A DNA stretch of 64,000 bases, taken from NCBI RefSeq assembly GCF_037392515.1, contig NC_090282.1:34461054-34525053 (forward strand), given 5' to 3'. Below, one piece after another: positions 20,531-56,066 of the stretch (position 1 is the first letter of the stretch; each line of letters begins with the position of its first letter). The DNA is from Haliotis asinina (taxonomy: Eukaryota > Mollusca > Gastropoda > Lepetellida > Haliotidae). A program made the translations under genes and the position numbers. Below the pieces are notes generated by a model. It was not told where the DNA came from. It was given only the letters and a program-made list of their open reading frames with translations, and made no database searches.

Positions 20531-23500
20531 CTATTCAGACGTCCAGGACTGAAATGAGATTCAATAAAGGATATTGTTTTGTCCTAGTAGGCATGGTATA
20601 GATGCTCTGTAGTGAGCAAATCAATGTGGTTTTAAGCCGCTTTTAGCAATATTCCAGCAATATCACGGCTTAACATTTTTCTTCAACAAACATGTACATT
20701 ACATTACACGTTACATTAACACCAACGTAAAATTGGCAAAGGCGAGTTGCGATGATGAAATAGGTCGAACCGATCTTGTCACTAGACATCAAACGCTACA
20801 ATCTAAGTGGGAATTTAATTTAGCGTGCTGACCAACCCAAGTTCCAAATAACCTTCAAGGATTTAAACCGACTGCTTAAACCAATGATAATAGAAAACTT
20901 GCATGCCTTGGTGACGCAACGCTGTTCAGCGACTTACAGCACCATCAACAACCAGGTGACCCACGCCCGCCATTATCTACAAAGGTACTAGTGGCAGTAT
21001 ATGTACCTGTATAAGCATTAGTCATATCTACAAACTTCACTGATGCTGACGGACCCATAAGCAGGAACCCACGCATGTCGTAAAAGGCGACTAACGGCAT
21101 CGCTTGCTTCGCTGACATGGTTCACAAATGTCACATCCAAGTTGTGAATATTGATGTTTTTGTTGTTGATCACTGGATTGTGAGGTCTAGACATGATTAT
21201 TTACAGACCGCCGACACATAGCCCGAATATTGCTCAGTGCGGCGTCAAACAACAACCAGACAAACGATTGATGCTGACCAACCTTAACATTGTTCTTGAT
21301 AACTTGTATGATGCGTAAGCTCTCTTCCCATGTCTCCTTGTCCGCGATGTCGCTGTTCTCCTCCGCCAGTTCCACTCCCTGGTCAGCAAATCATAGGATT
21401 GTAAAGTTTAGCGTGTATTTTACATAAACTGAACAACACACTGAACTTGTATTTGCGGAGCACTCTTATTCTGATATCCTTGATATCAATAGAGACAGTT
21501 ATCTCAAAGCCGGCCCTCGCTCTAGTGGTGGCAACGATGAGTCTGAAAATATCGATTTCCTTAACAGCGCTGTAACTTAAATTTCAGTTTATTCAACGAA
21601 TGGTACACCATTTACTGTTGTTTAGGTGCAGGGGTTGTTGCACGGCCTCAGTCACTGTAATGGGTAGACAAACGAAACACATGAGACTCATATTAAGTGA
21701 GTGAGTATTGCACTCAGCAATATTCCAGCTATATGGCGGCGGTCTGTAAATAATCGAACCTGGACCAGACAATCCAGTGATCACCAAGATTTGCGCAATT
21801 GGGAACCGATGACATGTGTCAACCAACTCAGTCCCGTTATTCACCTCTTACAAGCATAGTCACACATGTAAGTCATAAAGGTCACCGTGTCCAGTGAACG
21901 ACTGTGTTATATCGTTTATTATATAGTTTTACAGATGCTAGAGACTTTTCCATACTGACAAGAATAGATTACAGACTTAGATATACCCTGTTCCCGATGT
22001 TGCAGGCCTTCTCTCTACTGTCCAGAATAGTGTAGTAGAACAGAGATATGTTGAGAACGAGACCTAGTCTGTTGGGATGGCTAGGCAGCAGTTCCTTCAT
22101 GGCGAGCTCCATAGCCTGCTGGTACGCGGTGGTGGCGGCAGTCACAGACACTGAAGGGGGAAGGGTCAAGGGTTCCTATAATGGACTGTATTAGTATACT
22201 AATCAGTAAATCGCCTGTACATGAAACAACGATTTGCTTTGTAACAACGCTGAGGCAGGATGTTCAGTATTCGCGAACACTTTGTGTCATGATTTTGTGA
22301 TGATATATCGAGTCATGGCCATGATTTGGTCGGATCTGCATGATCAACTCTGCTTGTGACAGGGATGTCTGTTAATCACGGAAAGGGTTAAAGTTTGCTG
22401 CTGTTTATTCACAGAAACAACCAAATTTCGGAAACGGAAAACACGTTTTAAAATTGCATAAATGTGATCAGATTTGTTCCGAAAACCAAAGCTCGTGCTT
22501 CATAATGAACGAGAGATCAAAAAGTATTATTTAGCCATACTTTTCGGTCTTTAGAAGGGTTTTGTTTGAACGCGAATAACTGTTTGACGGAATCTGATTT
22601 TATAACAAGAAGTGAGTACAGAAAATGAATTACTACTTCAAAATGCTTCTCTGACACTTTTGACCTGCTTAACCTGAAAAGGACATTAAGGAATAAATAA
22701 AATCTAAAACAAAATATTTCATCCTACTCAATGAAAGATAGTTAACCGTTTCAGTATTATTTATATGTACCATTTCCCGAGGACCAAAATATTACACCGT
22801 CCACTCCTTTCAAGATCATATCTTGAACAATAAAAATCTGAAAGTTACTTCAATGGGAAATGCGTGTGTTGTAATGAATGTATGAACATTATAACGAGCG
22901 TAACCTGTCCTCTTCTCTCCAGTCGTTATTTCAGCGATATACCGAGGGTAGTCTCCCTTTAATTTGAGAAGTAGGACTCTGGTATCGGGAGAGGTAGCTG
23001 TTTCCAGGAGGTACTTATCCAGCAGTGTCTGAAAGATATCATTGTTAGTATAGCATAGTTTCTGATTCATAGACTCAGCCAGTGTTTGTGACAGGTGTTT
23101 GTAAGGATATGCTATGCTTAAAGAACACTCAGTCAATACATGCATTTAGATAATCAGCTGAACCTAATCACCGTAATATTGTTCATGTACGACATGACAA
23201 GTGATTACTTTTTTTAAACCAAAGTGCGTATTTTCCTCAGTATATAATGAGTAAATCACCAGAAGGTCTTCGCAAATGTTTGTGATCTCCTTTTCTAGTA
23301 CATCCATGTATTCCTGGGCGAGTTCTCTCTTGACACCAGTTCCTGTGTTGTCTCTATCCTTCTTGGCTTCAGCACTCTGGCCTCGTGTGCCCGCTTTCAC
23401 CTCTGTGCCCTGGTTTACTATGTCGTTCATCACCCGCCACGATGACCTTCGTTCCCCCACGGCGTTCTTAAAGGCCACCGACAGCAGGTCCAGGGCACCT

Positions 23501-25322
23501 TGTTCAATAGGTCATTTCACTTAAATTAGGATTGGGATGGGTTGATGGTTTTATTGACATCCCCTTCCCATAATTTTGCAACATAATTTCAAATATAATT
23601 ACATGTAAAACATTGTTCACCATCGCCCCTTGTATATGAGCATATGAGTGCACAACTGATGACCCCCCACCTCCCAAGAACAAAATGTATGACCCCTAGC
23701 CATAAATTATGGACGGTCCCCTATAATTTTATGGTACAGGAAATAATCATCCACCCTAAAATTACAGGCGTGTTTATTTTAAAGACGGATTTGTTTTTAT
23801 TCTTTTTCCATCGCTTGGATAATGCACTAAAACGGCGTTAGATTGAACTGACATACCATATGATAGGTCAATAACTACTTGCATCTAAGCCATGAAGCAT
23901 ACAAGTCCGACCTGCAACAGGTGTCGGTTGTCGTGTGGTTTGATCACATGGTGAGTGAATCATTCTTTAGAGCATCACATGTCTGTAGCAAATCAATAGC
24001 TCGCAGTTTCTGCATGCGATGATTTCTCGGTTCATATGCACTAAGTTAGAGGACTTGAGATTGAAATGTCAATGAAACCCAAAGGTCACTTTGCTCTGGC
24101 TAGTAGTGGAAGCTACCGTCTCAAGGGACGAATAGATGGAAATTGCACGGTCGAACAATCCGGCATGTTATTACACTCTGCGGTCGGCAATTTTTGTATC
24201 AAAGATCCAATGCAGTTGCTTCTCTTAACTGACGCTGTACTATCTACTTGCGCGTTAATCGGTACCCCATGGACTCACGTGACCTCTGAACATATATATT
24301 ATGTGGAACTATAGCCTGGCTAAGTGAGTGTTACAAGAAGGGCAGAGTGTGAGTTGGGCGTCCTCACACATACCAACTAAACAGCAAAATGAGGACTCAG
24401 TCGAGCTGAGTTTCTCATCGTTTTGAAGACTATTGTTAGACTAGTGTAGAATTTGTATACTGCCCCCCCCCCCCCCCCCCATCAGAATGAATGTGTGTGT
24501 CCGTGCGCGCGTGCGTGTATGCGTGCTAGGGTAGGTGTGTGCGTGTGCGGACATGTGTAGGCTGGTGGACGGATATGTTTACGTACCTTCCAGTGGTACT
24601 CATTATACAGGATGCGTGAGTGAGTGAGTGAGTGAGTGAGTGAGTGAGTGAGTCTAGCTTTACGCCGCTTGTAGCTATATTCCAGCAATATCACTTGGGA
24701 GCATCGGAAATAGGCTTGACTGTACCCACTGACTAAACCCAATGAATTCTCACTTTCAAATGCATATTTATGATACTTTGTACGGATCAGTCTGCAACCA
24801 AACAAGTTATACACATTGCGTTGCAAATATGTATCTATGTGCTGCCAACATGTGTTGTGAGAATATACGGTAACCATGCATAATGAATACATTATCATGA
24901 AGATATGCCCAGCAGTAGATGTACAGAAACACATGGCACAAAATCACGTTCGCGTTAAGGTGAACTATAGAAAAGTTTCAGACACACGCAGAAGAGCCAC
25001 TAAATCCTGCTATGATTTGCCCACCCTTGTTTTGTACAGAGCAGATATAAACACATAAACAACGCAAACGGTAAAACCAACTCGTCTGGCCACAAGAAGC
25101 AGTTACCTCAGACAACTACTCTGGCACTTTCAGCGCCTGATTAAACACTAAGAGTAAGTGTTATCGACTTACAAGTAATACAGAAAGAGACTTACCATGT
25201 TTTTCAAGATAATCGGGATAGTTTTGCACTAAGCATTTCACATATTCCATCATCTCATCAAACCTCTCCCCTTGTTCTGCTAACTGAATCCGCGCCAACA
25301 TCCTTTCCGGACTTTCAGCCAT
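20531..25322 (-). CDS. 14-3-3 protein, divergent copy D (six coding exons, 255 aa)
   Basis: Phosphoserine/threonine-binding dimeric adaptor of the 14-3-3 family. Exons in transcription order: 25322-25196, 23498-23260, 23028-22905, 22150-21987, 21378-21283, 20548-20531. All introns are GT-AG, with phases 1,0,1,0,0. Start is ATG at 25322 ('MAESPERMLARIQLAEQGER'). Groove residues matching zeta K49, R56, R127, Y128 and N173 are K53, R60, R151, Y152 and N197. The residue matching E180 is Thr204. Helix I reads 'VIKNNVK' rather than the usual 'LLRDNLT', and the tail is only SWTSE, coded by an 18-nt final exon. Residues about 71-100 form a charged Gly/Lys-rich loop much longer than usual. The exon-5 donor is weak (AAG|GTTGGT), and the exon-2 acceptor is AAG with a poor pyrimidine tract. 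The frame is open throughout, so I call it a real, fast-evolving gene. Expression is unknown. Confidence 0.88.
20629..20672 (-). mobile_element. SINE family 1 tail fragment
   Basis: Reads 'aagccgcttttagcaatatt' and 'ccagcaatatcacggct'. It lies 81 bp upstream of the last exon of 14-3-3 copy D, within the intron. Confidence 0.7.
21053..21248 (+). mobile_element. SINE family 2 in intron of 14-3-3 copy D
   Basis: Contains 'aaggcgactaacggcatcgc', 'tgatcactggattgtgaggt' and the tail 'cgaatattgctcagtgcggc'. Its end lies only about 35 bp from the donor of the 96-bp exon (21283). It is inserted antisense to the gene. Confidence 0.85.
21695..21856 (-). mobile_element. SINE family 2 in intron of 14-3-3 copy D
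   Basis: GTGA run, then 'tgcactcagcaatattccag', 'tatggcggcggtctgtaaat' and 'gacaatccagtgatcacc'. The end is truncated after 'cccgttattcacctcttac'. Confidence 0.85.
24459..24740 (-). repeat. poly-C, GT-rich and GTGA tracts plus SINE family 1 remnant
   Basis: A poly-C run of about 20 bp at 24462-24480 precedes a GT/GC-rich stretch to about 24550. A (GTGA)n run occupies 24614-24652, followed by 'ttacgccgcttgtagctata' and 'ttccagcaatatcac', which is the tail and body of a family 1 SINE. Everything lies in the first intron of copy D. Confidence 0.8.
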
Positions 25323-25826: not shown

Positions 25827-25984
25827 CTTGCCATGAAAGGCTAACCTGATCGGGTGGTCAGACTCGCTGACGTGGTTGACACATGTCATCGGTTTCCAAT
25901 TGCGCAGATCGATGCTCATGCTGTTGGTCACTAGATTGTATGGTCCAGCCTCGATTATTTACAGACCGCCGCCATATAGCTGAA
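25827..25984 (+). mobile_element. SINE family 2
   Basis: Contains 'ctgatcgggtggtcagactc', 'cagatcgatgctcatgctgt' and 'ttatttacagaccgccgcc', ending at 'atatagctgaa'. Confidence 0.82.
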
Positions 25985-27689: not shown

Positions 27690-27787
27690 ACACACACACA
27701 CACACACACACATACCTCCCCCCGCCGTCAAATTGCTAGAGTATTGTTAAAAGTGGCGTAAACCATATTCACTCACTCACTCACTCT
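27690..27787 (+). repeat. (CA)n microsatellite and SINE family 1 tail with CACT run
   Basis: A (CA)n run of 21 bp (27691-27711) is followed by 'attgctagagtattgttaaa' and 'agtggcgtaaacc', the family 1 tail, and a CACT run. Confidence 0.75.
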
Positions 27788-28839: not shown

Positions 28840-31800
28840 TCAATCTGTACTGTCATCTGGGTCCTCCGAAGTCCATAACTAGAAAATAGAACAGAAAAAG
28901 CTCTCTCAACCAATTAAATTACAATTTATTTGTATCAGTTCATATTCAGACTAAGGACTAATTACAACATTGAATGCGTATGATAGCGATCGTACTGTCC
29001 CCAAGTGAAATAAGATTTTGATTACTAGCACCTGTTAGAAGTAACATGCTGTAACATCACCATTGTTACGATCACAACATGGCCAAAGACTGAAGCGTTT
29101 GTCAAACTCAGGTATTAGATAAATAAATGACATCGATAGTGATAGCATATAGATTATTAACAGGTCATTTGGGAAGTGGATCCAGATCATGATGAAGTTA
29201 TTCAGGGTATCTCAGAACTCCCTGTTCTTATCAATATGTCATCACAGAAAGTTATATTGGGTCATCAAGTTAATATCGTGACTTAAAGAGGTATTTCGAG
29301 TCTCCAGTTCGAGATGTTGTGATGTGTGAACAGCGTGACGTGGCGAAACCTACCGTTAGGTTATCTCTGATGAGCTGGAGTATCTGGGTGCTGCTCTTGT
29401 AGTTGGTTTCATCAAGGTTGTCCAGATCTGCAATGGCCGCGTCGAACGCCTGAAAGATTAAGAAGGCTAGGGTCTGTGATGAATGTTATGTGGCGCGTGA
29501 GTCCACGGGTATAGTGACTGAGTGAGTTTACTGTTACCCTGCTTTAAGCTATATTCTAGCAATGTCAAGGCACCGGGCACCTATAATGGGCTTCACATAT
29601 TGAATACATGTGAGGAATCGAACCCGGGTTTCGAACGAACCCACTAGGTTACCCCATCGCTCTAACACCAGTGAAGTTCCGGATCGAAACTTTAACAACC
29701 ATCGTTTCTCCAGATCGGGTGATCAGACTCCTAACTATGCTTAATACATATCCAAATTGTGTGGATAGAATTTCTAATAACCAACCGATCAAAACGGAAG
29801 AATAGTAGCAACGACCAGCATTGCTAAGACCTACTAAGACTTTATCAATAGTTCCTTCACTTTAAGCCTTTTTGATCTGGTAAAAGACTTCATGGGGTAA
29901 CAACTTGGAGCAAATGAACATAGGATTTCAGAGGTGACCTCTGTGTATTTTGGGGTCTCGATATATCTTTCACGCTATCTTCAACTTTCATGCACATTAT
30001 AACTAACCTGTCTTTCAAAACGTCTAACATACCCCCATATCGTGGATGTACTGACCGATTTGGCTATTTTACAAGCATGGTGGCGATTCTCTGCAATCTC
30101 ATAGTAGAACACAGACATGTTGAGAGCCAGACCAAGCTTCTCTGGATGGGTCGGTGGCATTGATTCCACCTCAGTCGCGGCTCCTTTATAAAACTCCTCT
30201 GCATTTTTCACTGACGCTGAAATATTAACACATATCAGTTTATATCGCGTGCCTTTAAAACTCAGTATCATCAAACGGCATTAAAGAGACTAAAACTCGA
30301 TATTACCTGCTTTTTTGTCGCCTGTTTGAATTTCCGCCATATATCGAGAGTAATCTCCCTTGGTTTTGAGAAGACTGACCTTCGCATCCATCGTAGTTGC
30401 AACTTTGATTAAATGTGTGTCGATAATGTCCTAGTCAGGATCAAAAAAAGAGAATTAGGATATAACAGTTCATGTAAAACTATTTCAGTAAAAATATTAG
30501 GTTCACATATTTACACCATTAAAGGACAGATGTATTACAAGTACAGAGAAAGGTCAAAACCACTTGCAACTCGCGGTTATAAAGCAGGGATGTTGATGAT
30601 TGCTGGATAACATATAATTCATCCCAAAACATGGTAAATATGTAATAAACATATGATACCACTATCTCTGTGCAGTACTTTGTGAGCTCGTCTTCGATCT
30701 TTGCCAAAAACCGTTTCGTGATGTCTTTCTTCCTCTCGTTGGTGACCTGAGGTAGACTGTTGATGATTCTCCACGAACAGCGTCGGTGCCCGACACAGTT
30801 CTTGTAGGCGATCGACAGGAACTTCAGCTGACCTGGAACACGAACATTTTTTATAGACGAAAAGAGTCTAAACAGTACAGATTCTATTGGCCATGGTGCT
30901 GTTCCTTTAGTTAACTACAGGTCATGCCAGTTTGAGTTCCTGAAGACAACTGTCCTTGAACTTTGAACTAGCCCAGAACGAAAGAACCTATGGGTTACAA
31001 ACTGTACCTTCACCTGTCCTAGACAACAGAGATCATCTAAGTTATAAACCGTGACTTCACCTGTCCTAGACAACAGAGATCATCTAAGTTATAAACCGTG
31101 ACTTCACCTGTCCTAGACAACAGAGATAGTCTAAGTTATAAACCGTGACTTCACCTGTCCTAGACAACAGAGATCATCTAAGTTATAAACCGTGCCTTCA
31201 ATGGGCCGAGAACTAAACTACCAGCATATTATAATCTGTACCTTCACCTGTCCTAGACAACAGAAATCATCTAAGTTATAAACCGTGCCTTCAATGGGCC
31301 GAGAACTAAACTACCAGCATATTATAAACTGTACCTTCACCTGTCCTAGACAACAGAGATCATGTTGGCTACAGGTGCAATTTCCGCTGATCTTGTACAA
31401 AAGTTTGGGCTACGTTAAAACTGGACGTATTGTTGCTCTGAAACCGGAATTTTACAAACTGGTACTTCAGCTGGTCTACAAAACAGATCCTGCAGAATAT
31501 ATAAAGCATCTACAATTAGTTTGGGGTCAGATATCCTGTATGTTATACACTGTAGCGTCAGTGGACCTGGGACAAGGAAACAGTAACTTCAGTTGACCTG
31601 GAACACGTGGTCCTGTGTGTTAACGTATGACGGGAGATCTCGCAGAATAAAGACAAGCGACTACGCCGTTGCCAACTACTGCTTGGTCCAGTACAACATT
31701 AACACCACTTTATATAGCAAACATCGTTTCGGTGTGTTGGTTCGAAGCTATGATGTTGGAGATAGATGGTTTCTTTACAACAGTGCCAGTGCGACAAATT

Positions 31801-32205
31801 AGTTAGCAAGTTGTCGCATGATCTCTCTCTCTCTCTAAAATACATGAATACAATATTCACAAACGTGTTTACGACAATAATATTGATGTTAACGATTGAG
31901 TAAACAAAAACATTCCTCCCTATAATCACATCAGAGTTACAACATGTGATCCACGACATGTTACGGCGTAATGGGTGCATTCTATTTAATGCTTATCTGG
32001 GGCCCAGATGAGTTCAGGTCATACGGTGTGTTCTCTGTGGCAGACCTTAGGACAACAGAGATAATGCCAGCTCACCTTCTTTAATGAAATAATCCGGGTA
32101 ATCTCGGACCAAACGCTTCACAACTTCCAGCATGTCTGTGTATCGTTCGGCACACTCAGCCATCTTCATTTTATGAAGCAGCTTCTCCCGTTCACTCAAA
32201 GGCAT
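28840..32205 (-). CDS. 14-3-3 protein, divergent copy C (six coding exons, 240 aa)
   Basis: Exons in transcription order: 32205-32076, 30832-30660, 30430-30307, 30216-30056, 29449-29354, 28878-28840. All introns are GT-AG, with phases 1,0,1,0,0, identical to copy D. Start is ATG at 32205 ('[20 protein letters not shown]'). Phosphopeptide-groove residues are K54, R61, R130, Y131, N175 and E182 (zeta K49, R56, R127, Y128, N173, E180), and helix I reads '[13 protein letters not shown]', so the binding groove is complete. The tail is EDPDDSTD, shorter than that of copy A. '[10 protein letters not shown]' has Lys where zeta has '[10 protein letters not shown]'. Lengths match the family (~245 aa). 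A minus-strand AATAAA at 28185-28190 is a possible poly(A) signal. The first intron carries an unusual tandem array (30960-31610). Frames are intact, so it is probably a functional paralogue. Confidence 0.9.
29513..29663 (-). mobile_element. SINE family 1 in intron of 14-3-3 copy C
   Basis: Contains 'gctttaagctatattctagc', 'ataatgggcttcacatattg' and the head 'ggaatcgaacccgggtttcg'. It lies between the exons at 29449 and 30056. Confidence 0.82.
30960..31610 (-). repeat. 47-bp tandem array resembling the splice acceptor of the next exon
   Basis: Core units of 47 bp start at 31031, 31078 and so on. On the minus strand each unit reads 'tctctgttgtctag' followed by 'gacaggtgaagtcacgg'. The true acceptor of exon 2 of copy C reads 'cgtgttccag' then 'gtcagctgaagttcctg' at about 30844-30816. 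A closer duplicate, 'cgtgttccag' then 'gtcaactgaagttactg', lies at about 31607-31581. Longer units with 'aatgggccgagaactaaact' appear twice near 31200 and 31290. The array seems to derive from the intron-exon boundary itself. Confidence 0.75.
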
Positions 32206-40000: not shown

Positions 40001-40136
40001 GAAGGAGTAAGGGGTCAATGAAGCTTCCGGAATGGTTCTCCACAAGGTCATTTATGAACCTGACCATGTCGTCGTACCTCTCTGCTCGGTCGGCTAGTCG
40101 GACCTTAAGAAGCAACTGCATTCCTTCTTCAGACAT
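34066..40136 (-). CDS. 14-3-3 protein, divergent copy B (five coding exons, 236 aa)
   Basis: Exons in transcription order: 40136-39837, 38836-38713, 37730-37570, 36891-36796, 34095-34066. All introns are GT-AG, with phases 0,1,0,0. I chose ATG 40136 ('MSEEGM') because it puts 'AERYDDM' at the usual distance. In-frame ATGs also occur at 40142 and 40175. Groove residues K53, R60, R129, Y130, N175 and E182 are kept (zeta K49, R56, R127, Y128, N173, E180). The usual 'NFSVFYYEI' is 'NYSVLKFEM', '[11 protein letters not shown]' is 'KGDYFRYKAEV', and the tail after 'ILRDNLV' is QWTLLTDRK, without an acidic end. The 9-residue last exon (30 bp) is placed from its acceptor (TTTCAG|CAATGG) and its matching phase. 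The first coding part is one exon, as in copy A and unlike C and D. The last intron (2.7 kb) holds SINEs and T/G-rich DNA. Confidence 0.88.
34557..34806 (-). mobile_element. tRNA-like SINE, other family
   Basis: The minus strand starts 'gtggctggcacacgtcgaag' and has 'ttatgggttcgaatccagg' about 50 bp later, that is A- and B-box-like sequence, followed by a body with no clear similarity to families 1 and 2. The stems do not pair well enough for a functional tRNA. Confidence 0.5.
35738..35960 (-). mobile_element. SINE family 2 in last intron of 14-3-3 copy B
   Basis: 'cgccgcaataatccagctat', 'cacacaatccagtgatctac', 'gcctgaccacccgatctctg' and 'cagtctaacccggatctt'. It is nearly complete. Confidence 0.87.
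36001..36035 (+). repeat. (TTG/CTG)n trinucleotide tract
   Basis: Mixed 'gttgttgttgctgctgctgc' run, with no coding meaning. Confidence 0.85.
36341..36590 (+). repeat. T/G-only low-complexity tract
   Basis: About 250 bp composed almost entirely of T and G ('gtttgtttgtttgggggttt', 'ggaggggggggggttg'). On the minus (transcribed) strand this is an A/C-rich intron stretch. The plus-strand Phe/Gly frames are artefacts. Confidence 0.85.
37331..37497 (+). mobile_element. SINE family 1, full length, in intron of 14-3-3 copy B
   Basis: It starts 'acagtggggtagcttagtgg', has the B-box region 'cccaggttccgttcccca', then 'tgtgaagcccatttctggtg', and ends 'ggaatattgctagagcggcg' plus 'taaaac'. It is the best preserved family 1 copy here and defines the head-body-tail order. 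Confidence 0.9.
38155..38300 (-). mobile_element. degraded SINE family 2 in intron of 14-3-3 copy B
   Basis: 'acgtaatgctcagtgatatt', 'atgcaatcctgtgatagtgg', 'gggatacgatgacacgcagt'. Homology is clear only in parts. Confidence 0.55.
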
Positions 40137-43216: not shown

Positions 43217-43573
43217 AGGGGTTCAAAAATCCAATCGCCCGACGCCCGGGACAAGTCAGTTTTTTTTTCTTTAGCGCTACTACATAATTTCTGCTTACGG
43301 TTTTTAACTACAAATACCCTTGGGTTACATCTCATGTCTGCTCAAAGTGTAGTCATTACATTTCGAAAGATAATAGAGTAACTGGTTTTTGTTTTTTGTC
43401 ACTTCTCAATGAGCACTAAATATTAACATCAAATACCATGTTGATTTATTCTTTCATAATTACAAGATCATTATTGTCATAAAAATCAGGGCAAGTGGAA
43501 AATTAGTCAGGACAAGTTTCTAAAAGTCACTTGCCATGTGGAGAGCGGCTTTTAAAAAACTTTTTGAACCCCT
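43217..43573. mobile_element. MITE-like DNA element with perfect 13-bp TIRs
   Basis: The left terminus 'aggggttcaaaaa' (43217-43229) and right terminus 'tttttgaacccct' (43561-43573) are exact inverse complements. The interior is AT-rich and non-coding, with 'cgcccgggacaagtcagt' near the left and 'gtcaggacaagtttctaaaa' near the right. A target duplication is not certain. The superfamily is unresolved. Confidence 0.75.
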
Positions 43574-43853
43574 GTTTTTCAGTAAATTAAAAATGGGCAA
43601 CGCTCATACCTTTAGAGATTTAACCATTTGCATTTTTAACGTTATGTAGAAAAACAAATGCCTCAGTCATGAATAATGAATTACTATTGATGGGCAATGT
43701 GTAAGTACTTATCAGTTCCTATTCCATTGCCGTTGTAAACCTATCACAGAATTGTTCATAATATGAATTACAAAACTTCCATCAAGATCATTTATCTATG
43801 GATTCACTTGCATGCTCTTACCTAATTTCTGGCAGAAACCTTGAGATGACATG

Positions 43854-43985
43854 TTCAGGGATGGCAATGGGTGAAAGTGATTTCTGCTGAATGTCAGCCT
43901 GGGGTCTGCAGGCCACAAGCCCCCAATTGATTTGCATTTAAATGTGCAGATTTCCGCAGATTTGCAGAAAATTGCCATCCCTGAA
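43854..43985. mobile_element. short MITE with perfect 15-bp TIRs
   Basis: 'ttcagggatggcaat' at 43854-43868 and its exact inverse complement 'attgccatccctgaa' at 43971-43985 bound a 132 bp element with no coding capacity. Confidence 0.75.
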
Positions 43986-44538
43986 TGTATTTGTAGAAAT
44001 GTTAACCTGTGATATTACAGTGTCTAATCAGAAAACAATGTCCACTTGAACTGTTCAGCATAAACAATGTTGGAAAGTATAATTCCTTCATTTGGATGAA
44101 TCAGTCAAAATGTATTGAACTATGCACTCTTCATGCAAACAGCTTAAATTAGTTATAACTGTAATCCCACCATTTATCCATCAATAGCAGAAAGTTATCA
44201 CAATCTTCACATGTTTACTTAAATCCACATTTCAAAGGCAACAAAATACAAATCTTAGTTCTCAGGCAATGCCAAATTATTCAAACACTCACACACAGTA
44301 TCACAATTCTGTTTAGAATTCCAGTTATGAATGAACAAAGATATGCATATGAAATCAACACATTTTACTACACCAATATTTCCAGTGGCCGTGGACATGT
44401 TCAAACAGTGATTAGACACTGTAGACTGAACTGTGGCGTACAGGTTGTCAGAGCTGCACCATCATGTTATCACTACGGTAATACCTGGATCAACAATTGA
44501 GCTGCTTGGGCACAAAGTCATATCTCAGGAACCTAAGA

Positions 44539-46884
44539 TTTATTCAGTTTATTTGATGTGAATATTACTCAAACTTAACTGACAGCCATGCACAACACTG
44601 ATGTACGGCAATTATTACAACTTTTGTTTTGCAAGGGGAAAAAAAACAAGACAAATGAAACTTTATGGTGAGGTGAAACAGTATTATGCATCTTTATCAA
44701 GCAAAGGATAGATGAAACATTAATACTCGCAAAAAATAAAAATAAAAAAAAAAATATTGGGTACATGCCAATGCTTTATCCAAACAGTATAACCCGTATC
44801 AGCATTATTGAGTACCCCTCTCTCAAAACTTCACTACTCCAGCATACAGCATCTTAATAAAGTCTTAAATTGATCTGCTAGTCACTTTCCAGTTATGACA
44901 AAGCTTCTGATTTGACAACAGTTATCCACATAAAGTCAACAATGGGCAACAGCAATGACACACTGACTACACAGGATAATAACAATCCAAGCAAAGCCAT
45001 TTTAGCTGTGATGTCATGAAAATATCTTTGGTTGTACCCAAGACGATAGTTCCCCAGCAGATGACAGGCTTTAGCGTTAGCTGAATTTCAGTCCTACATT
45101 TGGGTGGCAACACAAGCATTCATTCATCTCATGGCTAGGACATAGTAACAAGTGAAGTGCACACAGCAACATCAAGGCCTGGTTTGTTGGACATTGTTAT
45201 CGAGGATCTGGCCACAAACTAGAAAAGGGAATTAAAAATGTTTGGTCCTTACTAACTTGTTTCTGTGCAACAAAGAAAAATTTAGAGTTTTCATGACAAC
45301 CTTGACTGAAAACTGATGAACAGCGGTCTTGTCTGATCTCACCAGAAGGGGCATACTGTGTGGATCCAAACACATATTGCTTTATATGCCAGCAGTCATA
45401 GATTGGAGGGTACAAAATAACAGAGATGTCAAAGCACATGTAGCAAACACATTTACCACACAATCAAAATTCACAAGGCAACAGCTTCACCTGCCTTTCC
45501 TGGCATTAAAATGAAACGAGACGGGGAAAAGTATAAAAAATTCTGATCACTACACTTCTGTGACATCTCTGACAGATCGAAACAAAATGACTTCATCAGA
45601 AAAGAACAGTTGGTAAACAACTTCACTGATTGGTAGATCATAATACCCAACCACTAAAGAAAATAAGTAGATTCTGCCAATAATGTTCACAAAAGAAGGC
45701 GCTGCAGTCTGCATAATAACTGACATCATACTTGTAAGTATTACATACATACATGCAATGAATATGTATATCTATGTTATGTACGGCTAATAGTGTACTT
45801 TTGGTAAAGCATGCTTCTGTTTAGACAAGTATTTTGAATTTCTATCTAATTTCCAAACTGACCCTATGTTCAAAAATGTTTAACACATGTTTGTCCGATT
45901 TCCAATTTATTATTATTTAAGTGCCACAATAATATCAATAATGATAGATTAACAAGAGCAGCTTGCATACTTGGAAAGATAGACGATGCATCAACACCAC
46001 AAGAAGATCTGAGATTACAGGGGAAACTACTATGTACTTACGCCAGTAGTGGATAACTACGATAGACTAGAATCAGTAAAGGATTACAAACATACACAAT
46101 AACATATAAAAACACTTTTTCTGTTAGTTCCAATCCAAAACTCAGGTGACCATTTTATCAACAGCTCTAGCAACACAAAGGAAAATAAGGAGAAAGTGAA
46201 CAAGTTGCCCAGTTCAAACTTGGAAATACAGATTACATACATTAATGAATAATTTCTGGGCTATCTTCATCATCTCTATCATCATCATCAATGCAATCTG
46301 ACCATGTTCTACCTGTCAGCTGCAATGTTGTACTAATTATTGTAGATAAGTATGTATGTAAGTATGTATGCAAGGCTGAGTGAAGACTGTAGGATCAGTA
46401 ATGACTGATGACGATGGATTCACATCAAGAATAGACACATGAGATGTAGCGCTGCAGAGATATATAAAAAAAAAAATTAAAAAAAAAAAAAAAATCCACA
46501 TCAGATACAACTTTCGTTTCCATTTTCTGTTTCACAAAGCCTGGGCACAGTAAATCATTTCACCTCAAGTTTATCTCAATTGAACCATGACATATTCTTA
46601 GTTATCAGCGTACATGGAAATAAATGACATTGAGCTTGACTGTCTGCTGTATAAAAGTGACCAACGCAATGATCAACGAATCAATCCTAAATGGCGATGG
46701 ATCCTGCAGTGCCTGAGATGGCAAACCAACGACTGTCTATCTGTCTGCATGTCTTGTCTCAATGTCCATCAGAGTATGTGCGCTGCAGTCACCACTACCT
46801 CCCCCTCCCAGCCACCTTCCCTCCCTCTTGCCACTGGCAGCAGCAGCTGCAGACGGCCAACAAAGCTAGGCTGGATCTGTCTCA
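44539..46884 (-). other. probable 3' UTR / downstream region of 14-3-3 copy A
   Basis: About 2.3 kb below the copy A stop codon is free of recognised SINEs, unlike the flanks. Minus-strand AATAAA motifs occur at 44539-44544, 44548-44553 and 45906-45911. A long 3' UTR is plausible for a 14-3-3 zeta-type gene, but the true end is unknown. Confidence 0.35.
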
Positions 46885-49800
46885 CTACTGATCGTGCTGT
46901 TCACCCATTTCTCCATCGTCTCCTTGTGCATCAGAGGTCCAAAGCTGAAACAGTCATCATTACTCAGTATACATTCTTCCAAAAGTACAAACACAGGCTA
47001 TTTCATTGGCATAAGACCCATGAAGGTCCCGGGGTAGAACAGGCCTTCAGCAACCCATGCTTGCCATAAAAGGTGACAGTGCTTGTCCTAAGAGGTGACT
47101 AACGGGATCAGGTTGTCAAACTCGCTGACGCTGCCGTATAGATGGAATATTGCTGAGTTTGGCATAAAACGAAACTCACTCACTAATTGACATAAACTTT
47201 TCAATCATTAAGACCCTATACCACAAAGACCAATACAAGAAAATGAACAAGATATAGGTCTTGGTTTACTAATTTTATAATTGCACAAAGTAACACTTTT
47301 GCAAAAATATACTTGGTGGCTATGATACTGGATTCTGACATTAATAATGATGTGAGTATACAAGGAATAGGAAACAGTGTAAGTGACTGACAAAATACAG
47401 AATCAAACTAATGTAAACTGACCTGTTCAGATTTTGTTATCTCATCCATCACTACATACATTTTTCAGAGTGAAAACTGATTTGACCACCCTTCACTGGA
47501 ATAGTTAGAAACCTACTGACTTCTTAAGAAATCCATGGAAGATAAAGCCAATTGAACCATCAGCTCTTCATGTAAATAACTGTCACAAAGCACCAAGTCA
47601 TTCATTTCAAAGTCTAATAAATGTTAGCAGTTGAAATGAAGTGGAAAAACAATATTAACTCTCAGCACCTGTCGGGTCGTCAAAGAGTTATCATGAACTC
47701 AACATGAAACATGAGCTGTCAGGACTTGGGAGTAAGCAAGCCTGCAAATTCAATGGTCCTTGTGTATCGATATTATTTACTCAAAATTAAGAATGCTCAA
47801 TTTTCTTTGTGCTCACTACTCCTTTTCACACCTGTTATTATTGAAAATATAGGATATTTACTGTAATATATTGGTAGTCAATTAAAAACACATTGGAACT
47901 TTGAGTGCCTTCAAACTTTAGGCACCTACAGGATTACTGGAAATGAATATAAGCCCTGATAAAAACTTGTGAATGAGGTTAGTATTACGTTTAATCCCGA
48001 AACATTCCAGCAGTCCGTAAACAACTGAGTCTGGAATAGGCAATCAAGTGACAGATCTACTTAACTGGGATTTGACTCCGTTAGTCACCTCTTATGACAA
48101 GCAAGGGTTACTGAAAATCAATTCTAACCCGGATCTTCACGGTCACTAGAACAAAGAAATACATGCAGGTTACAAGGCATAACACTACTCACCGTAAGGT
48201 TATCTCTGAGAAGCTGCATTATCAATGTGCTATCCTTATAAGACTCTTCTGAAAGTGTATCTAACATGGCAATGGCTTCATCAAACGCCTGAAACAAAGG
48301 AGAAAGACTACAGCAAGCAGAAGAAATGTAAAAAGACAATAAAATCTTTGAAAGTAATTATATCAAATCCCCTAAAACACTAATTAAAAATTTCAGGTAA
48401 AAGCTTAAATGAAAACTGAACTAGAAAATCTGTTATGTAGGAAAAAGCTTGATCACAGACCTCTAGCAAGCAATGTCTATCATCAAAGATGTCAGAAACC
48501 AACATACAGTGAGACTGTTCAGATACAACCCTAGGTAATCCCTAATAATTTAATAAATTTCCTGTGTACTTTTTCATAAATAGTGAGTGAGTAAGTGAGT
48601 TGAGTTTTACACCGCACTCAGCAATAATCCAGCTATATGGCGGCAGTCTGTAAATAATCAAGTCTGGACCAGACAATCCAGTGATCAACAACATGAGCGT
48701 CGATCTGCGATGCGATTGAGAACCGATGACATGTGTGAACCAAGTCAGCGAGCCTGACCACCCGATCCCGTTAGTCGCCTCTTATGACAAATATGGGTTG
48801 CTGAAGGCCTACTCTACCCCGGGACCTTCACGGGTCTCATAAATAGAGAGCACTTCCTACATAGATTAATATTTAATATAATGTATGTGGACTGAAGGTT
48901 ACACCAAAATACATGTAAAGTCAATCTTTAATAGACATGGGAGGCAACTCATATACGGCAAAGATCATTCTCACTCAGGAGACATTAACTTGAAAGTATT
49001 TATTCAGTATCTACTTAATGTGCAGAGGACGAACGTTTATGACCTAGCCACCTAACTATTGGGGGTCAAGTTTCTCTAACACAGTTATGCTCATATCAGA
49101 CTTTCAAAGCCAGTGAAAAAGAAACTTAGTGTTCTACTAACTTCTAGATGTTCCCAGAGACTATGATGATAGATGAATTATACTGATCAATGAAAATATC
49201 ATCTAGTAAAATATCACAGCTACTACATGCCATACACACTTTGTGAGGCCCAATCCTTATAGTTAATAAAAAGTTATTTTTATCATAGCATTAAATAATA
49301 GCATAACATGGTTTCTAATGACACTTTTCATGAAGTAATCTGCAATAATTCATTCATATAAAGAACTGTAGAAAATATTGTAATCTTGCTCACTGACCTT
49401 TTTTATGTGGACTCACCGCCTAAGTAATGAGGATTTTTTTTTTTTTAAATTCACTGCAGAAAATAGGTACTAATTTTACATCAGCACAAGTGACAGGCAT
49501 GTTACCAAAAATACATACTGTACAAAAAATGCTAGGGATATTGGTACTTTTATGACTGAGTTTTCTATCAATGTCAATAAATACATAAATATATATATCA
49601 CTATTAATGATTCAGAAATTTACACATATCCGTAACTACTTGTGTACATAAATCCCTTTTGATATGGCTAGGGTCTGGCTGGTACATCAGCTTATAGTTT
49701 CTGGGTACAAGTGACGTGATTTTAACAACAATGATTAAATGTTATGGCAATAATAAGTTGACTTTGAATTCATTAACCCAACATTTTCAAGTTTATCTAG

Positions 49801-52800
49801 CAGAGATGTTTTGCTGCTAAATGCTGCACTCGTTAATGCTGTGGCTATATGGTATTTGGTATGTAAATAATCAAGCCTGGACGAGACAACCCAGCGATCC
49901 ACAGCATGCGCATCCATGAACACAACAGGGATAGAATGACATATGTCAACTAAATCAGCTAGTCTGTTAGCTGCTGCTTCTGGCAAACATGGGTTGAAGA
50001 CCTTCATAGGTTATATCTAGCAGTGAATCAGCTGGACAGAAATATTATGTGCAAGACACAAAACTTGTCATATATGTTAACACAATTCCATGATATTACT
50101 AATATGGACCCCTTCCCGACCACGTGCTGTCTTGAATCAGACCTTTGTTAGACATTTCTTGAGTCTAGAGATGAACAGTTTCATTTTAAACTTTAACCAC
50201 ACACAAGTTTGAATTCTGTCAAAATACAGAGTAGACAGATAATGTTATGCACAGGAAATATAAGGTATGCTAAATTGATTACAGAGACTGCCTAATCACA
50301 AGACTTTCCCATTATTATATTGATTCTGCCATATGTCATAAATCCATTGTATCCCCCAAAACAACCTGTTTTCCTTATTCAGGTCTTAAATGATCAAGCA
50401 AGTGGCTTTTATGTCAGAATCAGTATACTTACACTTTTCGCTAACTGACAAGCCTTTTCTGGATTGTTGGCAATTTCATAGTAAAATACAGAGAAGTTTA
50501 GAGCCAGTCCTAATCTGATGGGATGAGTTGGCTCCATTTTTGCTGCAGCCGTCTCATTTGCTTCCTTGTAAGCTGTTTCAGACTTTTCTACAATGGCTGC
50601 AACAAAGTAAATATAGAATTAGCATTAACCAAACCACACAAATGTTAGTTTGACCACATCTCAATAGTTTTGTGAAGAAAATTACGATGTATCTGTACCA
50701 TATTTTCTTGAATATGATAGGCATCCAAGCACAACAAATTACCCTCTATTTCAAGGGGATGCAGTAAATTCAAAGGGAAACAAGAAAGAATTGTGTCCAT
50801 GGACCCTGCTGAGGGAAGAGTTCCCTACAACAAGTGTGCTCTGGTGGATAGACTTCATTCTCTGTAACACTATATTCAGACCAAAATTCAACAAAATTTA
50901 TGCAAGTTCAAACTGCATTAAAATTGAAAAAATGAATAAAATACAAACTCAATATATGAGATGCACTCCTTTAGAGTCCATATAACAAGAATGTGTAATC
51001 TAAATGAATTCCATAAAGTAGTTTGAGGAGAAGTGGATAATGTACACGCCACCATCCCCAATCCCTCGTCCCCTATTACACTATCATCATAGCAAATTTT
51101 TTTGCAAAGTGTACTTAAGTTCAAACTTACAAAAAAACAACAAAAAAAACCAATAAAATAACAAACAAAATGGGAGATGCATATCATTAGTGTGCCAAGA
51201 AAGCCCATCAGGACAGACACAGAGGGTAACCCTATATGCACCCAGCCAAATTATAGCAGGGCATAAAATATCACTATAAGTGAAGAACTATGGTAGGACT
51301 GCTATTAATTGTCCTTTAAGGTGTTTGTAGGGAACAATTTAATGAACTGCTGTTAAGGTACACTCAGTATCAAACTACAGCAAATAGGTCTTTTGACAAG
51401 TCAAAGTATAGCTAATTCAAATAACTTCACACTTGATTTTTCCAAAATTAAATCATAATGTAGGCAATGAATGAAATTCAGAATAAAAAAATGAAAAGTT
51501 CAGGCATATGATGAACAGTTGTTTTCAGAGTGTAAAAATATGGCTAAGATGTGTACTTGAGAACTCTTTTTGTTAACACAGTATTTCCAGTGTTATGTGC
51601 TTAGAAGAACGTTGGTGTAATGTTAAAAGAACTGTCACTAATGTGGTCAGGTCTGTTAACAGCTGGGTGGTTCAGGTTTATCTTATATGTGTGCCAGTTA
51701 GAAAGATACTGTTACATCACTGTCAACAGTATCAATACAACAGGGCTTGTAAGAAGGTCAAGATACTTCATGAGACCTTACTTCTACCAATGACATTTCA
51801 TACCTTTTGAAATGATTTCATGGTTGCCAGTTGACAATAAGGAGCCTATAATCATTGGAGGAATAATAAATTTCCAATCTAACAGACTGTCAACAACCTG
51901 ACTGTCAACAACCTGACAGTCAACAATGTCTGTACACATGGTCTGATCATGTCAATTCATATTTGGCTGTATCGCAATTTGGAATCAGAACTGGTTCATG
52001 AATATACACAAATCTTACAGGCCCTGTATCAAACTGAAATAAAATAGTAAAACATACCAAAGCACCACAAGTGGTTGATAGTTGTACAGCACATTATGGT
52101 ATGTTGTACTCATTTTCCCTGCTGGAATTTATTTGTGCAACTCGATTCATTTATTAAAAATGCCCATGATTTGGCATCATCAAAGTGTTACAACAAAAGA
52201 TTTTCTTTTTTTAAAAAAAAACTTACTAGATGACAAGGAAACCATTATGGTATATATGTTAACACACCTGCCCTGTCTTCCCCTGACCTGACTTCGGCCA
52301 AGTACCGGTAGTAATCCCCCTTCATTTTCATATAGAAGACTCGACTATCATTCTTGTTGTCTTTAGCATTGCCAGCCTTTGTGTCAGAGGAATCTTCTTT
52401 TGTCTGTGGAATTAAGTGTTTATCCAGCAATTCCTGAAATGAACACAGAAGAATCAATAGTTACTAAGAGAAAAATGAAGAAGACATTTTAGCTTGCAAA
52501 TTTTCTCAAAATTTCCTTTAAACACTGGAGTCACCAACAGACTTTGGATTATGTTTGCAGTAATCTGATTTAGTGAAAGTAAGTGACAATAAAAAGTAGG
52601 AAATACCTCTTCAAAGCTGAAAACAAATTATCTACAATGAGAAGAGCCAACCTTCATTAGTTCCTAGTGATGACAAAGGACATATAGAATGATTCAAAGA
52701 ACAAACTCTTTTCTGTAATAAAGCTACTTACATATTTTCAGTAATGCATTTTGGTTTCACAAGACAGTCTTATTTAATGATCTTGTTGAGTATGTTTACA

Positions 52801-55800
52801 TTAAAGCTACATTGGACAAATAATTAAACTTTGCCTGAATCCAAACAAAAGCTTCTTTTGCGCAGATGAAGTATAAAGGTGATAGAGTAAATCTTGCTTT
52901 ATGGTAAATCCCTATGATTAACTAGCACACCAAGAGTTGCTGGGTCCTCATACACTAATTAATGTGTTGCATATATAATTAAATCAGACTTTCTCTAGTT
53001 GAAATAAGTAAACACAAAAAAGTGTTCATTTTAGTATGTGGCACCACTGTATATTTCCTATCAGCTTGCAGCAGTTGGGCAGGTTTTGAAATCAAATCTA
53101 GCATGCAACATAATAAACCTTTGCAAGTGTGCAAACAGTAGAAATTACAAACACGAAAGTAACAAGCTACAGAGCATTTCCCCTTATATAGTGACACTCA
53201 TGTTACCATGGTTAGCCTGCAGATGTTAGTGCAATAAGAGGCATTGACCAGCATCAGATTGTCGGTAAGTGTTCAACCACCTGACTTGATAACACTTTCA
53301 GTATCAGATTAATCACTCACTAACAATTACACTAACATGAAGGGATGTTTGTAACTTAAGACCCCAAAACTTTGGAGTTTTCAGAAGCCATCATAAAATG
53401 CAATGAGCCAGGGATAATATAAGGAGCCAGCAGTCAGTATTGTAGAGTGTTCACAAAAAGCATCTAACTCTCTGACAAATCCAGCATATTCCCCAACGGT
53501 CAGATAGAAGTTACCAACCCACCAGCTCCAGTGTCTTGTCTGAATATTTCACAATGACTTTGTCTGAAGTTCTTATTGATGGAAAATAACACTTGTGTTT
53601 CTGTTTATAAATCTCAAGTTTGTTAATAATTTTAAGGCCTACTATAAGAAATGTTAAATCAGAAATGTGTTTATTTCTGATTTTGTGGGTCCAGTCAATT
53701 TTCAGACACCTTAAACTTACAGGACTTGGCAGGACACAAAGTCCTGTTACTTTGAAACACCATTCATGAACAGAGAATGTAGCAAGACTAGTTCATCGAC
53801 ACCTTCACTCAGTTATGGCAAGTCTGACATTACCAGCAAGTCATGGTCATTTTCTTAAATTGCTATTCAATAGTAATTGACACTAGAATTCATTATGCAT
53901 GATTTTTCAAAAATAGAAACCAGCACTCTCATACAAAGGATTTGGCAGTTATGTGGCCTGTGCTATAAATTATGTGCAATGAGCGACTTCAGTTACATGC
54001 TGCTTTCAGCAATACTGCTACAGCATCACTGCCGGAGACACCAGAACATGTGTAAGGATTCTGTCACTGTTTCACTAAACATACTCAGTGCATCAATCGC
54101 TCGCTTAATACTGTAATCATTTACAGTATTAAGTGTATTAGTTAGCCGTTACTCATGCTATTTTTTTGTCTCAAAGTGGATTTGTTACAGTCCTGATATT
54201 ACATACCTATGCCCCTTAAAAGTTCAGGAAATTTAAATCTAATAGCTAATGTCACTGCCATATTGCAATGAAATTTTAAAACTGTAACTTACTGCCTATA
54301 AGCACTGTCAGACGCATACACTAAGAAGTGAACAGAACTGTAGACTTTGCAAACAAATATTAGTTTCTTTACTGGGTTGGAGCAAATAGAAATTATATGC
54401 ACTCATTTCCTTCCGACAACAGGCAATTCTTATAACACATATCAGCTTGATCAGCTGAACATCAAAATAACTATTTTAGCTTGTCTTATTCTTTACATCA
54501 GTTGCACATTTGTATGTATATTTCTGTACTACTGCAAAGGTTGTAACAGCAAAGAATTCACATGCTACACAAGATCATCATGATAGCTTATTTTCAGTGG
54601 TGGTATACCTAGCTTTAATAACCTAGAAAATGTCACACTCTTAAGTATTAATTATAGTTTCATGTTGTGGCTGTGATTAAAGACACAAGGGGGGCAACTC
54701 TACGCCATGGGAGTATCCTATTTTGGTAAGAGTTCCATCCGTAATCCCTGACTGAAATGTATTCCAATTATTATGATTTCTGGGGGTTAGGGTTTAGGTA
54801 TGAGATTTAGATTTAATATTATGTCAGGTTTAGGGTTAGGGTTTGGGATTGGCTTTCTATAAAATCTACTCTTAGGCATAGAATGATTTTTACATATGGG
54901 TGTTACAGACGGCAATGTTTCCTACGCAAGACTACCACCCCTATCCCCCTTAAGTTAAAATGATGAAAAAGTTTCCCTTTCAGTGGCATTTTTAGAAGCT
55001 GGATATGCCTTTGAGTTTGTTCAGATACAACGAAAGAAACATTTTAAAACTAATCGTTATCAGATGAGGAATACATATTCAGGTGATATATGATTTGGCA
55101 GGAATGAAGTCTAAGGGAGGATATGGGTGGATGTCTTTCCAATCTTCCTACCCATTCCTTGTTTGGTATGTGTGGAATATGTCCTTTTTACGTACCTTTT
55201 GCTATGAATTATATACAATCATTTCACATACATCTGCAGTAATAATGACACTACACAGAAAAGGGTTTGTGGTAAAGCCCCCAATGAAACACTGAACATT
55301 AAAAGTGGAAGTAGAATTCAAGACTCAATGATACAATGATAACAGCCTGATTATTACACAAGGTTTAGTTGAAACAGCAACACGATATGCACTATTTCAT
55401 TCCAACTGGTTTTCTTATCGTTAGTGGCAATATCATTCAAAGCAGTACAGGTATAGGGACAACGAACAGTTTGAAAGCATATAGAAAGTCAGTCTCGATT
55501 CCCCGGAGGAAATGGGAACATCACTACGTCCAAGTATGACATTCCTACAGACGTACTCATTGTGGATTGAAATAGGAGCAGTATATACATAGTGATTCGC
55601 GTACAGAAACATTTGTGTAATCCAACAAACACAAGGATACACATGCCATTTTAACATTAATAAAGCAACAATGACAATTTCATACCGATTTACTAGGAAA
55701 CATCCGCCCAAAAAGGCGTTGCCATAGAGCACCTACCAACACTTCCTCACAGATTTTTTTCAGCTCTTCTTCCACTTTCGTTCGGTAGGTTCTTGCCATC

Positions 55801-56066
55801 GATTGCTTTTTCTCTGCACCTTCTCCTCCTGCCATATCACCTTTCTGTTCGATACTACTAATGACCCTCCATGCAGAACGACGTGCACCAACGACATTTT
55901 TGTATGCCACGGATAGCAAGTTTCTTTCCTCGTTGGTAAGAATGTCAGATGTCTTGCCTGAGCAGCACTCCACGCACTGTTTCATCGCTGCTGCCATGTC
56001 ATCATACCTTTCAGCTTGTTCAGCTATTTTGGCCTTTTCAACAAACTTCTGTTTTTCCGAACTCAT
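46885..56066 (-). CDS. 14-3-3 zeta-like protein, copy A (five coding exons, 271 aa)
   Basis: Exons in transcription order: 56066-55737, 52433-52268, 50596-50433, 48288-48193, 46944-46885. All introns are GT-AG, with phases 0,1,0,0. Start is ATG at 56066 ('[20 protein letters not shown]'). Diagnostic sequences are '[19 protein letters not shown]', '[13 protein letters not shown]', '[18 protein letters not shown]' and '[17 protein letters not shown]'. Groove residues are K56, R63, R153, Y154, N199 and E206 (zeta K49, R56, R127, Y128, N173, E180). The protein is longer than the usual ~245 aa because of extra residues near 36-43 and 76-84 and a charged Asn/Lys/Asp loop at about 122-140. It acts as a cytosolic dimeric adaptor for phosphoserine/threonine clients. 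It is closest to the zeta/beta class and is the most conserved of the four copies. It is divergent from MRTO4, sharing an upstream region of about 0.58 kb. Confidence 0.95.
47011..47191 (+). mobile_element. SINE family 2 in last intron of 14-3-3 copy A
   Basis: 'cccatgaaggtcccggggta', 'tgactaacgggatcaggttg' and the tail 'tggaatattgctgagtttgg' with an ACTC run. The middle is shortened. Confidence 0.82.
47983..48142 (-). mobile_element. SINE family 2 near exon 4 of 14-3-3 copy A
   Basis: 'acaactgagtctggaatagg', 'ttagtcacctcttatgacaa' and 'aattctaacccggatcttca'. It ends about 50 bp from the exon donor at 48193. It is sense to the gene, opposite to the copy beside the equivalent exon of copy D. 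Confidence 0.82.
48582..48838 (-). mobile_element. SINE family 2, full length, in intron of 14-3-3 copy A
   Basis: GTGA run, then 'ttacaccgcactcagcaata', 'gtctggaccagacaatccag', 'agcctgaccacccgatcccg', ending 'ccgggaccttcacgggtc'. The most complete family 2 copy in the window. Confidence 0.92.
49812..50011 (-). mobile_element. SINE family 2, diverged, in intron of 14-3-3 copy A
   Basis: 'ctgcactcgttaatgctgtg', 'aatcaagcctggacgagaca', 'gggttgaagaccttcatagg'. More decayed than the copy at 48582. Confidence 0.75.
53990..54050 (-). mobile_element. SINE family 1 fragment in first intron of 14-3-3 copy A
   Basis: 'catgctgctttcagcaatac' and 'ccggagacaccagaacatg' match the tail and middle of family 1. 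Confidence 0.55.
54781..54860 (+). repeat. short degenerate telomere-like (TTAGGG-type) stretch
   Basis: 'gggggttagggtttaggtat' and, 35 bp on, 'gtttagggttagggtttggg'. Only about five recognisable units, in an intron of copy A. Confidence 0.5.

Follow-up and report, generated by a model that had tools for sequence, protein, structure and literature searches.

14-3-3 proteins are adaptors that bind phosphorylated partners; each dimer holds two phosphopeptides, and the family belongs to the slowest-evolving signalling adaptors. The locus described here, in the abalone Haliotis asinina, raises the question of what four such genes standing head to tail, three of them strongly diverged, are likely to do, and whether the diverged copies are still working members of the family. 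The window analysed is the whole stretch of 64,000 nucleotides (assembly GCF_037392515.1, contig NC_090282.1, positions 34,461,054 to 34,525,053), and the array occupies approximately 36 kb of its minus strand, from 56066 to 20531, with genes A, B, C, and D in that order. As far as sequence can tell, it is near certain that A-D are four intact 14-3-3 genes. The explanation preferred here, with a probability of roughly 0.55, is that gene A supplies a broadly used zeta-like protein and genes B-D supply phospho-adaptors of restricted expression with retuned clients and partners. The locus would then be a tandem array of long standing with four functional 14-3-3 genes, in which B-D arose by duplication from a single copy already separated from the zeta class. 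Gene A would be a zeta-like 14-3-3 with broad and steady expression, as suggested by the loss of CpG over its body. B-D would be dimeric phosphoserine/phosphothreonine-binding adaptors, probably expressed in restricted tissues or stages, which may bind narrower or different clients and may pair with partners other than zeta. The four genes are as follows.

Gene A, 56066-46885, minus strand, 5 exons, 271 amino acids (aa)
Gene B, 40136-34066, minus strand, 5 exons, 236 aa
Gene C, 32205-28840, minus strand, 6 exons, 240 aa
Gene D, 25322-20531, minus strand, 6 exons, 255 aa

The reading frames of A-D are all open, with none broken, and each of the 18 introns begins with GT and ends with AG. The PF00244 profile covers the four proteins nearly end to end (1-223 or 2-223 of 223 profile positions), with scores of 326, 213, 250, and 209 bits for A, B, C, and D, respectively, against a cut-off of 33.2. 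Frames, introns, and profile coverage thus confirm the four complete head-to-tail genes, ending at 56066 and 20531, that the initial annotation had proposed. In zeta numbering, all four genes have introns at residues 98 (phase 0), 140 (phase 1), 194 (phase 0), and 226 (phase 0); since the introns at 194 and 226 are common to all, a 96-bp exon is present in each gene, and the matching exon phases and 96-bp exon claimed earlier are borne out. A fifth intron, at residue 40 in phase 1, exists only in C and D and is missing from A and B. The exon lengths of 124, 164, and 96 bp presumably agree with those of vertebrate zeta-class genes. Neighbouring genes in one orientation with common intron positions constitute a tandem paralogue array, with the following exons.

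Gene A exon 1, 55737..56066, minus strand, 330 bp, from the start codon to phase 0
Gene A exon 2, 52268..52433, minus strand, 166 bp, carrying a 14-residue insertion
Gene A exon 3, 50433..50596, minus strand, 164 bp
Gene A exon 4, 48193..48288, minus strand, 96 bp
Gene A exon 5, 46885..46944, minus strand, last exon, with the stop codon
Gene B exon 1, 39837..40136, minus strand, 300 bp, with an in-frame ATG 6 bases upstream as alternative start
Gene B exon 2, 38713..38836, minus strand, 124 bp
Gene B exon 3, 37570..37730, minus strand, 161 bp
Gene B exon 4, 36796..36891, minus strand, 96 bp
Gene B exon 5, 34066..34095, minus strand, 30 bp, last exon, with the stop codon, QWTLLTDRK
Gene C exon 1, 32076..32205, minus strand, 130 bp
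Gene C exon 2, 30660..30832, minus strand, 173 bp
Gene C exon 3, 30307..30430, minus strand, 124 bp
Gene C exon 4, 30056..30216, minus strand, 161 bp
Gene C exon 5, 29354..29449, minus strand, 96 bp
Gene C exon 6, 28840..28878, minus strand, 39 bp, last exon, with the stop codon
Gene D exon 1, 25196..25322, minus strand, 127 bp
Gene D exon 2, 23260..23498, minus strand, 239 bp, carrying a long loop insertion
Gene D exon 3, 22905..23028, minus strand, 124 bp
Gene D exon 4, 21987..22150, minus strand, 164 bp
Gene D exon 5, 21283..21378, minus strand, 96 bp
Gene D exon 6, 20531..20548, minus strand, 18 bp, last exon, with the stop codon, SWTSE

The tiny last exons of B, C, and D (30, 39, and 18 bp) are well supported because the pattern YAG-NNN-TGG-ACN is so rare in the window: it occurs five times in the 128 kb of both strands, four times at the last exons of A-D and once inside exon 5 of gene C. 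In a search for further copies, the profile was compared with all stop-free six-frame segments of at least 15 residues in the window, and matches up to an E-value of 10 were kept. Among the 24 matches, the 18 with E-values below 1e-6 are the 18 non-terminal exons of A-D, and the remaining six, one of them the last exon of A, have E-values of at least 1.1. This profile search of stop-free segments of at least 15 residues in the window found no fifth 14-3-3 copy, no wreck of one, and no alternative exons; the Rfam search gave no match.

No stop codon or frameshift interrupts the 236-255 codons of B, C, or D, and every splice site is intact, which is difficult to reconcile with decaying or silent copies, even though they have diverged strongly, with identities of 34-49% to all other sequences compared, and lack a CpG sign of broad expression, two features that might suggest such a fate. 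In a simulation of neutral decay, using substitutions only and starting from gene A, none of the 500 runs at each setting (60, 50, or 40% identity) stayed stop-free, with a mean of 6 to 9 stops. Synonymous sites are near saturation and second codon positions are not: over the six pairs among A-D, 33-39% of codons carry a difference at position 2, against 61-69% at position 3. The ratio of nonsynonymous to synonymous divergence (dN/dS) is 0.22-0.34 for the three pairs with finite values (A-B, B-D, and C-D), although such pairwise values are not reliable because dS is saturated. Together with the invariant phosphate pocket described below, these results make decay of B-D hardly credible, and the pseudogene reading was rejected on the intact frames and splice sites and the simulation. 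The copies are intact as first described, with unbroken frames and introns, and codon positions and simulation indicate that B-D are maintained under purifying selection.

The divergence of the four proteins was measured against seven references: human zeta, epsilon, gamma, and sigma, an insect zeta, yeast BMH1, and another yeast protein. The zeta of PDB 6nyb chain C is taken here to be the insect protein. Gene A is 71-72% identical to the two zetas and 64% to epsilon, and its best PDB match is the zeta 6nyb_C with 344 bits; among A-D it stands closest to the zeta class (YWHAZ, 6nyb_C), with which all four have near full profile coverage and the pocket residues in common. Compared with 6nyb_C, A carries insertions of 5, 5, and 14 residues, and it differs from zeta in having Ala58 and Lys5. 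The human and insect zetas are 81.5% identical, human zeta and BMH1 67.5%, and human sigma and epsilon 59-78% identical to the other references. By this scale, A lies approximately 10 points further from human zeta than insect zeta does and so it, too, departs from a typical zeta. B, C, and D fall to 36-40%, 44-49%, and 34-42% identity to the seven references, and A-D are 35-49% identical among themselves. The identities of B-D to the two zetas (39-46%) are below that of human zeta to yeast BMH1, and zeta is hardly favoured over epsilon (B 39% versus 38%, C 45-46% versus 47%, D 40-42% versus 39%). The best PDB matches of B, C, and D are to 14-3-3 beta/alpha, with 172, 226, and 186 bits, far weaker than the zeta match of A, and other vertebrate isoforms score nearly alike. 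The strong divergence of three genes noted initially therefore stands, but it was understated, in that A has also moved.

What has been kept and what has changed can be read from the groove, dimer, and pocket positions, whose lists and residue roles are assumed to be those of zeta structures. The basic pocket, K49, R56, R60, K120, R127, and Y128, is kept in A-D (18 of 18 over B-D), and it includes the Lys, Arg, and Arg-Tyr residues K49, R56, R127, and Y128 already singled out as conserved. N173, N224, the acidic pair D124/E131, and the dimer pair R18-E89 are also kept in A-D, and W228 in B and D. The hydrophobic face (L172, V176, L216, L220, and L227), which contacts the residues around the phosphoserine, is kept at 5/5 positions in A, 4/5 in C, 2/5 in B, and 1/5 in D. 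The difference over B-D between 7/15 hydrophobic and 18/18 basic residues gives a Fisher p of 0.0005, which is indicative only because the five-residue hydrophobic list was picked after inspection of the alignment. Unlike B-D, human sigma and epsilon keep all five residues of this face. The claim that the groove was spared thus holds for the phosphate pocket and not for the groove as a whole, the hydrophobic face being largely kept in C and changed in B and D.

A broader test used the 118 positions that are invariant in the references, comprising 26 groove, 14 dimer, and 78 other positions. Kept in A, B, C, and D, respectively, are 26, 20, 21, and 18 groove positions, 13, 10, 8, and 9 dimer positions, and 76, 32, 51, and 33 other positions. 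Compared with the rest, the groove is better kept in B (p 0.004) and D (p 0.028) and less clearly in C (p 0.083), with p 0.47 in A. Groove and dimer positions do not differ (p 0.35, 0.72, 0.15, and 1 for A-D), which goes against a dimer-side hot spot; compared with the other positions, the share of dimer positions kept is larger in B and D and slightly smaller in C. The initial singling out of the dimer-side helices as a site of fast divergence is therefore not supported.

Individual contacts of the interface have nevertheless changed. Position 5 is K, Q, K, and R in A-D, compared with E in the two zetas, D in epsilon and both yeasts, Q in gamma, and S in sigma; the pair 5-74 reads K-K in A, Q-E in B, K-R in C, and R-V in D. 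In the 21-85 pair, position 85 carries T in B and V in D. The E5-K74 and D21-K85 pairs are missing from human epsilon as well, where their loss favours heterodimers. Position 54, Ala or Gly in the references, is E, H, and E in B, C, and D. D also carries E180T, and the acidic tail is almost absent from B and D. Gene A has Ala58 in place of Ser58, presumably the phosphorylation site in zeta, and human sigma has Ala58 likewise.

Three explanations compete with, or sharpen, the preferred one at this point. B-D may be ordinary adaptors with the clients of A, in which narrow expression relaxed selection and the changes are mostly drift with nothing gained; the spread of changes over the whole protein (32, 51, and 33 of the 78 other positions kept) and a CpG content at the intergenic level, which fits low or narrow expression, agree with this. 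However, uniform relaxation would not produce 18/18 basic against 7/15 hydrophobic residues within one groove, and drift, although possible, is on balance unlikely; the contrast itself comes from six plus five positions, a small set picked after alignment. A more speculative and fairly improbable proposal is that B-D form a lineage-specific class, in which the phosphate half of the groove is frozen, the sequence-reading half rebuilt, and the dimer interface recoded, such that private dimers would read phosphosites ignored by canonical 14-3-3 proteins. Finally, the 1/5 and 2/5 hydrophobic positions kept in D and B, the E180T change in D, and the retained R18-E89 pair might point to phosphate-binding decoys or dominant-negative partners, B and D dimerising with A or epsilon, holding clients poorly, and lowering 14-3-3 activity. 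With W228, N173, N224, and the six basic residues all kept, such decoys would be a long shot.

The proposed difference in expression between A and B-D comes from the CpG content of the locus. The observed/expected (o/e) CpG ratio of introns is 0.29 in A, compared with 0.70, 0.70, and 0.79 in B, C, and D, and with repeats masked it is 0.22 in A versus 0.67, 0.76, and 0.77 in B-D. GpC shows no comparable drop in the introns of A (0.97). Introns of A differ from those of B-D (p 6e-12), and introns of B-D do not differ from intergenic sequence (odds ratio 1.00, p 1), the intergenic set leaving out 43.5-46.9 kb, already seen to be depleted, and containing unmasked repeats. In 500-bp bins, the depletion forms one domain over gene A.

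CpG-depleted domain over gene A, 43500..55300, no strand, ending just before exon 1 of A

The left edge of this domain adjoins an AATAAA approximately 3.4 kb past the stop codon of A; in the 3.5 kb scanned, AATAAA lies at +973, +2331, +2340, and +3434. Such CpG loss is a mark of germline gene-body methylation, and the domain is probably its footprint. The GC content at third codon positions, 0.43 in A, 0.62 in B, 0.56 in C, and 0.60 in D, is in line with a differing CpG history.

A second, milder CpG-poor stretch lies at approximately 57.5-62.5 kb and holds an exon-like frame at 58514-58681 on the plus strand, with a Ribosomal_L10 match of 25.0 bits (cut-off 22.8), which we take to read like MRTO4. 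This exon is divergent from A across a region of higher CpG at approximately 55.5-57.4 kb, so a common two-way promoter is possible. In the Pacific oyster, the CpG o/e of genes and their measured methylation show a Spearman correlation of -0.616, and methylated genes vary least across tissues (PMC3840415); in this species methylation is found preferentially at housekeeping genes and in coding exons (PMC4378273). If the oyster rule is valid here, A and MRTO4 would be broadly expressed and B-D restricted or induced; by this analogy, A looks like a housekeeping gene and B-D look restricted in expression. The tissue restriction suggested in the initial annotation is thus indirectly backed for B-D by introns without the CpG loss of A, but CpG says nothing in favour of the gonad, which had been its example.

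A reproductive role of the array, as a gonad or sperm 14-3-3 set, would fit the CpG hint of restricted expression, and reproductive genes commonly include tandem copies that diverge fast and are narrowly expressed. Nothing points to the gonad over other tissues, however, and among the titles listed for 14-3-3, abalone, and testis none concerns such a gene, so this role is decidedly improbable.

With regard to history, eight derived columns are common to B, C, and D and absent from A and the references, compared with 0 for ABC, 0 for ABD, and 1 for ACD. Pairwise derived columns number 10 for C-D, 8 for B-D, 7 for A-C, 5 for B-C, 2 for A-B, and 2 for A-D, and the alignment also gives B-D a common insertion of two residues ahead of helix C. 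The tree support for the group B-D is 98/98 under LG+G4 and 85/94 under the C20 mixture model. Judged from these characters, B-D probably trace back to one ancestor, whose divergence from the zeta class preceded their duplication. The trees do not resolve the placement of A among zeta, gamma, and sigma, and a single group A-D is not rejected by the approximately unbiased (AU) test (p-AU 0.309). Position, orientation, and common introns fit the local amplification claimed at the outset, which is likely, but the best tree does not join A with B-D, and the local origin therefore rests on position and common introns. The simplest history would be a zeta-class gene beside MRTO4, its duplication, divergence of the second copy, and two more duplications.

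These duplications must be old, since synonymous sites are near saturation: the proportion of synonymous differences (pS) is 0.69-0.77, and dS is infinite for three pairs and 1.9-2.5 for the other three. Recent duplication was rejected on this ground, and also because the non-coding likeness between gene units is mostly a dispersed repeat of approximately 200 bp plus a few short pieces. This repeat lies at 48592-48838, 35730-35956, 32717-32920, 25781-25985, 21694-21831, and 21062-21258. Its longer copies are 67-82% alike, it occurs in both orientations between and inside the genes, and by size it resembles a short interspersed nuclear element (SINE).

Several observations weigh against the preferred explanation, both for expression and for history. 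The CpG contrast is smaller in exons (0.56 in A versus 0.64, 0.89, and 0.66 in B, C, and D); it is found in introns, whereas oyster methylation favours coding exons (PMC4378273). The CpG rule is drawn from a bivalve, so it would carry over by analogy, and the absence of CpG loss indicates the absence of germline methylation and not the site of expression. In the trees, the grouping of B-D is unsure under the better model, the 85/94 noted above, where long branches may attract; A joins B-D in 2% of 200 bootstrap trees and not in the best tree. C groups with D at a support of only 65/31, and the AU test does not reject B with D (p-AU 0.341), which leaves the intron common to C and D as the basis for pairing them. 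Furthermore, the seven A-C derived columns are left to chance under a B-D history, and the introns common to A-D may be ancestral.

That an invertebrate has additional 14-3-3 genes is no novelty in itself. Two 14-3-3 proteins are recorded for fly and for worm, and four each for Hydra and Nematostella (PMC1964759); two genes in the fly are also given in PMC3364263. The earlier statement that most invertebrates have only a zeta-like and an epsilon gene thus suits fly and worm in number but not the two cnidarians. As in the present array, the Hydra HyA-HyD and Nematostella NemA-NemD sets are four 14-3-3 proteins in an invertebrate, one with a changed groove; Hydra HyD has lost one basic residue, and its hydrophobic face is fully conserved, the reverse of B-D (PMC1964759). 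A tapeworm network contains a "14-3-3 signalling" cluster of nine proteins including kinases, with three 14-3-3 proteins differing between stages (PMC7204028); by this description, flatworm families are likewise similar in having at least three 14-3-3 proteins with stage-biased expression. In abalone, a larval proteome reports 14-3-3 epsilon (PMC5651566). Among the matches listed from the open-access literature (titles and starts of abstracts), there was no mollusc 14-3-3 tandem array. What stands out here is the depth of divergence and a basic face that is frozen while the hydrophobic face changes.

Outside animals, candidates in viral contigs were rejected, none of the 49 pattern matches being a relative, and one of the 61 pattern matches in prokaryote contigs is a relative, a Pseudomonas gene. 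It is an intronless 14-3-3 gene of 237 residues in Pseudomonas sp. NZ_QETK01000004.1 (L001:2995-3708, plus strand; PF00244 180 bits), 29% identical to C over the best segment, on a 190.8-kb contig whose neighbouring frames look bacterial by eye. By eye it has Gln at the K49 position and keeps the R127-Y128 motif. A bacterial 14-3-3 would be unusual, and contamination or gene transfer may explain it; the gene was set aside as having no bearing on the array.

Elsewhere in the window, large tandem arrays occupy 12109-12859 and 19162-19888, nested periods (24, 48, and 265 bp among them) marking one and 33 copies of a 22-bp unit the other, and the long open frames in them (up to 249 aa) look like repeat by-products. 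A 47-bp tandem repeat of approximately eight copies lies at 30994-31363 in intron 1 of gene C. The frames at 61467-61745 (plus strand) and 1570-2184 (minus strand) have no Pfam match at or above the cut-off; by eye only, they are presumed to be retroelement-like and a transposase-like fragment, respectively.

The isoforms of 14-3-3 proteins are so alike that isoform specificity is hard to study. In B-D, half to two thirds of the aligned positions depart from the references and yet the phosphate pocket is retained; such proteins reveal which parts may change and would make it possible to ask whether the hydrophobic face governs client choice. With CpG-depleted and CpG-normal copies side by side, the locus also provides a natural pair for relating gene-body methylation to divergence after duplication. 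If the phosphate half of the groove is indeed frozen and the sequence-reading half rebuilt in B-D, the abalone would possess two 14-3-3 systems, the housekeeping one and another partly insulated from it.

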